Shown here: piece by piece, positions 27,018-28,957 of the stretch
Layout: each line of letters starts with the position of its first letter
How positions within the stretch are numbered: position 1 is the stretch's first letter
NCBI GenBank assembly: GCA_016125475.1
Contig: WGLR01000008.1
Coordinates: forward strand, 62,001 to 126,000
From: Betaproteobacteria bacterium
GTDB taxonomy: Bacteria > Pseudomonadota > Gammaproteobacteria > Burkholderiales > Ga0077523
Reading direction: 5' to 3'
Length of the DNA stretch: 64,000 nt
Program-made: the position numbers and the translations under genes
The notes under the pieces: generated by a model
What the model was told of the DNA's origin: nothing
Database searches by the model: none
What the model saw: only the letters and a program-made list of their open reading frames with translations

Positions 27018-27305
27018 ATGGCTCGAAGGAAAACCGCTCTCACGCTCGCAGTCGGTTCCGCATTCGCGGCGTCGCTCGCCACGCCCGCCCTCGCCCAGCC
27101 GGGCAGCAACCCCTTCGCCATGCAGTCCCTGAAGACCGGTTATCAGGTCGCGGACGTGATGGACGGCAACGGCAATCCCGTTCCGGGGGTGAACAAGGCG
27201 AAGGAAGCCAAGTGCGGCAGCGACAAGGCGCAGGAGGCTCAGAACGACAGCGACAAGAAGAAGGAAGGCAAGTGCGGCGAGGGCAAGTGCGGCGGCAGCA
27301 AGTGA
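27018..27305 (+). CDS. hvfA: HvfA/bufferin-type copper-binding RiPP precursor
   Basis: 95 residues. Sec signal peptide 1-26 ending ALA, then [17 protein letters not shown], a conserved stretch of the family. The Lys/Asp/Glu/Gly-rich tail has three Cys (66, 86, 91) set in [10 protein letters not shown] and EGKCG. In HvfA/BufA2 peptides the EGKCG cysteines are converted by an MNIO enzyme to oxazolone-thioamide pairs that bind copper. ATG 27018 has AGGAG nine bases upstream; the longer frame from 26802 is not needed. The enzyme genes follow directly. Identity is by motif and context; modification is inferred. Confidence 0.9.
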
Positions 27306-27324
27306 CCGCCCGCCCGGGATCGCG

Positions 27325-28200
27325 ATGATTCCGACAGGCGTGTCGGGCGCAGGCCTCGGGCTGCGGCGGGAACTGATCCCGGCGCTCCTGGATCGCGTGC
27401 CGCCCGACATCGCCTTCTTCGAGGTCGCCCCCGAGAACTGGATGGAGATGGGCGGGGCCGCGGGCAGACGCTTCCGGCATTTCACGGAACGCCATCCGTT
27501 CGTCGCGCACGGCCTGTCCCTGTCGCTCGGCGGGCCGCGGCCACTCGACGAGCCGTTCCTCCGGCGTGTCCGCCGCTTTCTCGACGAGCACCGCATCGCC
27601 CTCTACACGGAACACCTCGCGTACACGACGGACGACGGGCAGCTCTACGACCTGCTGCCGATCCCGTTCACGGGCGACGCGGTCCGGCACGTCGCGCGTC
27701 GCATCCGCCTCGCGCAGGACATCCTCGAGCGCCGCATCGCGATCGAGAACGCCTCGTTCTACGTGAAGGCCCCGATCGACGAGATGGACGAACTCACGTT
27801 CGTCCGTGAAGTGCTGCGGGAGGCCGACTGCGCCCTGCACCTCGACGTGAACAACGTCTACGTGAACAGCGTCAATCACGGCTACGACCCGCGCGCGTTC
27901 CTGCACGCGCTCCCGCCGGAGCGGGTGGTCTACCTCCACATGGCGGGACATTACCGCGAGGCACCGGATCTGCTGGTGGACACCCACGGCGCCGACGTGA
28001 TCGATCCCGTCTGGGAACTGCTCGATCTGGCCTTCGGGCTCTTCGGCGTACACCCCACGCTGCTGGAGCGTGATTTCAACATTCCGCCGCTGCCGGTCCT
28101 CGAGCGGGAGGTCCGGCGCATCGCCGACCTGCAGGCCCGCCACACGGGAGCGCCCGCGCACCGCGCGCCCGCCGGCGGACGTCGCCATGCGTTCTCCTGA
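27325..28200 (+). CDS. hvfB: MNIO (DUF692) peptide-modifying oxidase HvfB
   Basis: 291 residues, TIM-barrel DUF692 family (related to MbnB). Likely iron ligands lie at the expected places: His62 ([11 protein letters not shown]), Glu96/His97 (TEHLAY), Glu141 (IENASFY), Asp174/Asn177/His185 ([16 protein letters not shown]), His205/His209 (YLHMAGHY), Asp219/His221 (VDTHG) and Glu248 (LLERDFNIP). These enzymes oxidise precursor Cys using multinuclear iron and O2. It starts 19 bp after hvfA and overlaps hvfC by 14 bases. The C-terminal 20 residues are Ala/Arg-rich and not conserved. Confidence 0.93.
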
Positions 28201-28957
28201 GTTCCTGGCCTATCAGGCCGCCTTCACGCAACACACCCGCGACCCACGGAAGCACCCGCGCCCGGCACGAGTGTCCGCACGCAGGATGCGCGTCTACAAC
28301 GAGCTGCTGTTCGGCAACTTCCGCGGCTTCCTGGACGCGTGCTTCCCCGTCACGCGCGAGCTGCTCGGGGACGTCCGCTGGACGCGTCTCGCGCGGCGCT
28401 TCTTCGCCACGCACCGGTGCGCCTCGCCGCTGTTCCGGCAGATTCCGGAAGAATTCGTCGGCTGGCTGCGGGACGCGCGTCACACGATCCGGATGGCGGA
28501 CTACGTGCCGCATCTCGTCCACTACGAATGGGTGGAGCTGGCGCTGGACGTGATGCCGGACGAGTCCCCCGAAGTCCTCACCGATCGGCAGGCCGATCTT
28601 CTCGCCGGCCACCCCGTCCTCAACCCCGTGTCGAGGCTGCTCGAGTACCCGTATGCCGTCCACAGGATCGGCCCCGCATACCGCCCCCGGCCGAACCAGC
28701 GCGAACACACGACGATCCTCGCGTTCCGCGACGCGAACGACGAAGTGCGCTTCATCGTCATGAACGCCGTGAGCGCGCTGCTCGTGCGCCTGCTGCGCGA
28801 CGGCGAGCCGACCGGACGGGACGCTCTCGAGCGCATCGCCGTGGAGATCGGGCATCCGGACCCCGAGATTGTGCTCGCGGGCGGGGCGGAAATACTGGAC
28901 AATCTGCGCGCTGAAGGCGCCATCGTCGGCAGTCGCGCCCCGGGACGGAACCCCTGA
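28187..28957 (+). CDS. hvfC: DUF2063 partner protein HvfC
   Basis: 256 residues. The N-terminal DUF2063 domain (about 1-100) is visible: [50 protein letters not shown] (read in parts). The C-terminal half has a [10 protein letters not shown] segment and [11 protein letters not shown]. In this family the protein acts as a RiPP recognition partner of the DUF692 enzyme, although it is often mis-labelled a DNA-binding protein. The start at 28187 overlaps the end of hvfB by 14 bases, so the two are coupled. No DoxX-like hvfD follows. Confidence 0.9.

Follow-up and report, generated by a model that had tools for sequence, protein, structure and literature searches.

The window, that is, the whole 64-kb stretch of DNA analysed here, contains a captophorin operon (hvfABC) that appears to belong to a dispersed ECF regulon, read by a trans-acting SigK/RskA-type pair in place of the local ECF/zf-HC2 pair; we put the probability of this reading at roughly 0.6. 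Stated for the whole genus, the proposal is that the MNIO copper-peptide response came under a SigK/RskA-type ECF factor once the local ECF/zf-HC2 pair had been lost, and that this factor now exerts remote control, by way of TG[AC]ATCC-N16/17-CGTA promoters, over two MNIO metallophore types (HvfA and BufA2), DoxX/HvfX, thioredoxin and the repair of periplasmic methionine sulfoxide by MsrBA and MsrP, which we consider a little better than an even bet. The operon itself is a further member of an already known type, and the earlier grounds for surprise at it fail. The regulatory layer is probably a new variant, with support from comparative genomics.

The three genes lie on the forward strand. 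The precursor peptide is encoded by hvfA (27018..27305; 95 aa, with Cys66, Cys86 and Cys91), an MNIO (DUF692) peptide maturase by hvfB (27325..28200; 291 aa) and a DUF2063/RRE partner protein (PME1) by hvfC (28187..28957; 256 aa), with an overlap of 14 nt between hvfB and hvfC. These coordinates, cysteines and overlap were correct in the preliminary description, as was the assignment to HvfABC-type MNIO/DUF2063 metallophore operons: each of the three products exceeds the curated cut-off of one NCBIfam model. HvfB scores 407.8 bits against NF003818 (cut-off 360) and HvfC 261.2 bits against NF050145 (cut-off 142), and HvfA, with 23.9 bits against NF050137 (KCGExKCG_twice; cut-off 19.5), falls among the Lys-Cys 5-mer repeat precursors. 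Against the full-length HvfA equivalog model NF050188, HvfA reaches 22.2 bits, far below the cut-off of 95, a shortfall that concerns the HvfA equivalog and not the wider Lys-Cys group. No bufferin precursor type (DUF2282 or BufA2) matched HvfA in NCBIfam or Pfam, and a Pfam profile search of HvfA returned zero matches; the Pfam assignments of HvfB (PF05114, 340 bits) and HvfC (PF09836 and PF22106) agree with those of NCBIfam. Relatives of solved structure are the MNIO 3BWW for HvfB (E 1.1e-74) and the partner protein 3DEE for HvfC (E 3e-11). Judged by its sequence, the window operon is thus an HvfABC (captophorin/oxazolin) cluster of the Buf_EGKCG type. HvfA relatives were also sought in viral contigs, and none was found there.

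For comparison, 93 loci were picked by HvfB similarity, window and congeners included, and exclusion of 3 recognised duplicates left 90. Of the 75 positions with 98% conservation or more in these 90 homologues (itself among them), HvfB of the window retains 73; the exceptions are A99, in place of S, and F237, in place of Y. Residues R14 (89/90), R15 (88/90), D250 and F251 (90/90 each) are conserved. We equate Arg-Arg (14, 15) and Asp-Phe (250, 251), by motif and without a FonB alignment, with the FonB pairs that the available text of PMC12668002 ties to Lys-Cys substrates and catalysis.

Pattern searches picked out a precursor in 81 of the 93 loci, or 78 without duplicates; the other 12 loci are excluded from the precursor counts. 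The automatic choice of precursor starts is wrong in places, and the start in the window was set by hand. HvfA begins with a putative Sec signal peptide, delimited by eye without a signal-peptide program (residues 1-26, ending in ...TPALA/Q; 27018..27095, forward strand), followed by a leader block of residues 31-46 (27108..27155, forward strand) with the pattern [NDS]PF...GY[QML]. The conserved NPF...GY stretch pointed out in the preliminary description is indeed a family-wide feature: [NDS]PF and then GY[QML] are present in 69 of the 78 precursors, a share that is inflated because the PF pattern is one of the two routes by which precursors were recognised.

Three 10-residue units (27204..27293, forward strand) carry Cys66, Cys86 and Cys91. 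The middle unit is Cys-free (EAQND), so that Cys66 is isolated, at a distance of twenty residues from Cys86. The first site, EAKCG, had been thought odd and possibly unmodified. In 10 of the 78 precursors, among them all five of the genus (5/5), the Lys-Cys motifs begin with EAKCG, and the motif as such is therefore normal; the real oddity is its isolation. According to the available text of PMC12668002, a two-repeat FonA test substrate (its sequence deduced here from those of its variants) lost 8 Da, and therefore had both sites modified, and a one-repeat substrate was left unmodified. By analogy, modification of Cys66 would be chemically plausible yet uncertain. In the same text, the EGKCG modification of Haemophilus influenzae, Neisseria gonorrhoeae and Fontimonas is a 5-thiooxazole, which supersedes the oxazolone-thioamide chemistry that had been proposed at the outset.

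Gene neighbourhoods were compared in the 66 well-flanked loci, with at least 3 kb on each side, using one query per neighbour at E 1e-5 within 5 kb; ArgB was identified by eye. ArgB is a neighbour in 26 of these loci, ECF in 23, DoxX in 21, zf-HC2 in 21 and HSP20 in 17. One phmmer query each for DoxX, ECF and zf-HC2 detected no homologue less than 5 kb away from the window hvfABC, and the claim that DoxX, ECF and anti-sigma genes are not adjacent stands. The accompanying claim that the gene set is unusual has to be abandoned: 31 of the 66 well-flanked loci, the window included, have none of the three, and the fon cluster consists of precursor, MNIO and partner alone in the available text of PMC12668002. 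A search of the entire assembly (96.7% complete) found neither DoxX (PF07681) nor NrsF (PF06532). Relatives repeatedly show the order argB, hsp20 (both divergent), ecf, zf-HC2, hvfA, hvfB, hvfC. Both argB and hsp20 still flank hvf in congeners, and argB alone in the window; the local ECF/zf-HC2 pair is kept by about a third of the relatives and was not found near hvf in the genus. The simplest reading would be that the genus lost its local ecf/zf-HC2 pair. In 13 of the 66 well-flanked loci, a PCu(A)C copper chaperone gene, absent in the window, lies near hvfABC, downstream of hvfC on the opposite strand.

Upstream of hvfA lies a feature overlooked in the preliminary description, a putative ECF-type promoter, GTGAATCC-N16-CGTATA (26883..26912, forward strand), which ends 105 nt before the start codon and has both boxes invariant in the five genus orthologues. 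When the upstream regions of the hvf operons found in the genus, five in number, are aligned, the longer invariant blocks are GTGAATCC, then CGTATA after 16-17 nt, and a GGAGAA ribosome site; the sequence of the spacer between the boxes varies, and 95-106 nt separate the end of the CGTATA box from the start codon. Regulation of the operon had been called unusual. Local regulators are absent, as was said, but regulation need not be missing, given what looks like a genus-conserved ECF-type promoter ahead of the operon. The 64-kb window contains a single match to TGAATCC-N15..18-CGTA versus 0.03 expected; the bare core ATCC-N16/17-CGTA occurs twice versus 1.7 expected, that is, at chance level.

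Across 12 genomes of the genus, TGAATCC-N15..17-CGTA has 59 matches, versus 2 for a reversed control pattern; these genomes are related, so that the counts are not independent events. Of the 22 MNIO hits in these genomes, weak and fragmentary hits included, 15 have the motif on the same strand and at most 1.2 kb upstream, with 0.00065 expected per hit. The hvf operons that yielded the motif account for five of these; outside this derivation set, 10 of 17 hits have the motif and 7 do not. By an assignment made by eye, with only representatives checked against models, 28 of the 59 matches immediately precede bufferin-like genes (11), hvfA (5), msrP (5), thioredoxin-like genes (3), DoxX (2), msrB-msrA (1) or an MNIO fragment (1). 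The product of msrP, MsrP, is also known as YedY. The second bufferin-like type stays, at 23.6 bits, below its model's cut-off of 60. Among the other 31 matches, many fall inside long frames.

The genome to which the window belongs has five motif matches, including those before hvfA, msrB-msrA and a BufA2 lipoprotein beside a second MNIO cluster. A CATCC variant is found in addition, about 150 nt before bufB. In this second cluster (G000:C26:309000-320000, L140), a BufA2 precursor is divergent from bufB and from a gene that by eye is DUF2063-like; a second BufA2 precursor there, the lipoprotein-like one, has its own TGAATCC-N16-CGTA. Two DoxX/HvfX genes distant from hvf carry the same promoter motif in other genomes (G005:C59:92932 and G006:C5:252231; L217 and L231). 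Outside the genus, the motif is found at 4 of 83 hvf loci versus 0.9 expected, slightly above chance. Among MNIO clusters of other families, both hvf-like and bufferin-like, 4 of 20 have the CGTA form within 1.5 kb upstream, versus 0.13 expected, which suggests that the regulon may reach beyond the genus. In these four clusters, the MNIO is about 38-43% identical to HvfB, and one of the motifs is 1.2 kb away.

Clusters lacking local regulators are common among relatives (31/66), and regulation must therefore be sought elsewhere. The preliminary description had advised a search for ECF genes in the rest of the genome, and this search yields a candidate regulator. The genome contains 17 Sigma70_r4_2 hits, 12 of them over the cut-off, and one of the 17, a SigK-like ECF gene (G000:C26:212717-213280), directly precedes a gene for an RskA-type anti-sigma factor (RskA_C, 62.5 bits). 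The SigK-like gene is itself preceded by genes for a cobalamin adenosyltransferase and for a protein with a metallo-beta-lactamase fold (L287, G000:C26:210500-216000). Its product scores 147.9 bits against PRK12514 (cut-off 265) and 145.2 bits against SigK (cut-off 226); as it stays below the cut-off of every specific NCBIfam sigma model listed, SigK or ECF18/19 denotes a resemblance and not a classification.

A SigK-like factor was detected in 10 of the 12 genus genomes, and in all ten (10/10) a relaxed motif, [AC]ATCC-N16/17-CGTA, starts 35-53 nt before the inferred sigma start, with a chance expectation of 0.0011 for each; this form was worded after the sequences upstream of the sigma gene had been viewed. 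The relaxed motif is so near to the inferred start that the leader would be very short. In one genome (G001), a motif match shares a 3.9-kb contig with the sigma gene. Among sigma relatives outside the genus, [AC]ATCC-N16/17-CGT is present upstream in 5 of the 25 fetched loci in which it was examined, versus 0.44 expected; the CGTA form occurs near the start in two of these five (L302 and L304), and many of the other relatives seem to abut the upstream gene without a gap.

Two other regulators were considered and rejected. The first is SigF-type control: the assembly has no NrsF, and the boxes are GTGAATCC/CGTATA, not GTAACC-N16-CGAA. The other is the TIGR02943-type ECF factor that stands upstream of hvfA in relatives; its best match in the genome of the window is a factor on contig C1 (E 1.1e-6), which was taken as RpoE from its neighbours by eye. 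For the mycobacterial SigK promoter, the available literature text yielded just a primer containing CCATCC, which was not used as evidence.

The same dispersed regulon, with an ordinary HvfABC operon in it, may instead be read by another ECF factor, RpoE-like, PRK09047-type or hidden in assembly gaps, in which case the likeness upstream of the SigK/RskA genes would be incidental. In favour of such a reader, the genome has many other sigma-like genes to offer, the relaxed motif has the history of wording given above, and two genomes without a detected SigK-like factor, G003 (79% complete) and G040 (96% complete), have the motif, or the CATCC variant of it, ahead of an MNIO cluster. We nevertheless regard it as rather unlikely: the relaxed motif, present at the SigK-like locus, is found at 0 of the 16 remaining sigma-like loci of the genome, and in G004, where the SigK-like factor was not found either, the sequence before a bufferin-like gene keeps TGAATCC and, as judged by eye, has no CGTA box. 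An improbable alternative is that the motif is the site of a different regulator, or a block conserved by chance, hvfABC being transcribed from a housekeeping promoter. The 8-base core is indeed frequent by chance, but the motif consists of two boxes held 16-17 nt apart by a spacer of varying sequence, is placed before gene starts and associates with one functional class of genes; for the housekeeping promoter, a consensus scan of the hvfA strand (26600-29400) found no sigma-70-like promoter.

A further possibility is that the operon is decaying, its HvfA, with three cysteines, one of them isolated, and one Cys-free unit, perhaps being no longer a useful copper ligand. The 3 motifs of HvfA compare with 5, 8, 8 and 10 in the four congeneric precursors, and the EAQND unit and the score far below the full-length model point in the same direction. 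Against this very improbable scenario, all three frames are intact, HvfB keeps nearly all of its conserved positions, the promoter boxes are conserved, and 21 of the 78 precursors, that of the window included, have 3 motifs or fewer.

Returning to control by the SigK/RskA-type pair, the following course of events may be proposed. Transcription of hvfABC would begin at GTGAATCC-N16-CGTATA, whose conservation is promoter-like. By analogy with known systems, HvfC would bind HvfA and present it to HvfB, which would oxidise the Lys-Cys motifs to 5-thiooxazoles; the product would then be exported by Sec and would bind copper in the periplasm. Judging from the association of the motif with these genes, the operon would be, in the genus, part of a dispersed regulon against periplasmic copper and methionine-oxidation stress, with hvfABC, bufferin-type clusters, msrBA, msrP, DoxX/HvfX and a periplasmic thioredoxin as putative members, not all in every genome. 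The most likely reader of the motif would be the SigK-like ECF factor, held by the RskA-type anti-sigma factor and apparently autoregulated; acting in trans, it seems to have assumed the role of the local ECF/zf-HC2 pair.

ECF control of msrAB is reportedly also exerted by Ecf in N. gonorrhoeae. The available text of PMC12668002 describes captophorin/oxazolin (HvfABC, H. influenzae), fontiphorin (FonABC, F. thermophila) and gonophorin (NgoABC) systems with, as in the window, a Lys-Cys repeat precursor, an MNIO and a DUF2063 partner; fon has the same minimal set as the window operon. The latter differs from the three systems by its mere three cysteines and one Cys-free unit, by an HvfA below the full-length model, and by a promoter common to a dispersed gene set. 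In Caulobacter, as far as the available text of PMC3511200 goes, a single ECF factor of the SigF-NrsF system controls, besides its own gene, yedY, a DoxX gene and a DUF2282-DUF692-DUF2063 cluster, a content that resembles the motif set of the genus; however, its anti-sigma factor is NrsF and its promoter GTAACC-N16-CGAA, whereas in the genome of the window NrsF was not found and the motif is TGAATCC-N16-CGTATA. RpoE2 of the RpoE2-HrsE system of H. influenzae governs msrAB and a DoxX-like gene, and its 67-aa anti-sigma factor is related to those of ECF group 13 (available text of PMC7907618), unlike the RskA-type gene, far from hvf, in the genome of the window. The SigK-RskA systems of M. tuberculosis and Y. 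enterocolitica combine an ECF factor with an RskA-type anti-sigma factor, as does the candidate pair, and Cys127 and Cys177 of the candidate resemble, as judged without an alignment, the conserved Cys pair of ECF18/19; the targets named in the available text of PMC7509140 are mpt70/mpt83 and katG, and no MNIO cluster is mentioned there. Among the literature matches listed (titles and beginnings of abstracts), we found no RskA-type ECF factor linked to MNIO clusters, a weak test of whether such a link is absent from print.

If our reading is true, three distinct sigma/anti-sigma pairs would, each in another lineage, run much the same effector set, and confirmation of SigK/RskA-type control would mean that the sigma switch was replaced around a fairly constant effector set. 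A readable promoter motif also offers a direct route to the assignment of regulator-less clusters, and would define what the cell treats as a single stress, joining copper peptides, periplasmic methionine repair and DoxX.

Several observations concern precursors elsewhere. Upstream of the MNIO, 12 of the 93 loci are negative for the precursor patterns (L052, L057, L062, L064, L071, L082, L106, L112, L119, L122, L125 and L044), and some of them may carry other precursor types or have precursors encoded elsewhere; in L044, EGSCG-type repeats escaped the recognition pattern. In another genus genome, the motif precedes a small secreted-looking protein, the visible part of which consists of EKFGREAD-like repeats without Cys (G011:C445:5333, L245). 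Finally, EGKCG precursors with what appear by eye to be EF-hand-like segments are present in Nitrosospira, Nitrosomonadaceae and Thiobacillus relatives (L049, L050, L056, L075 and others), EF-hand fusions being a known precursor type in the available text of PMC12452194.
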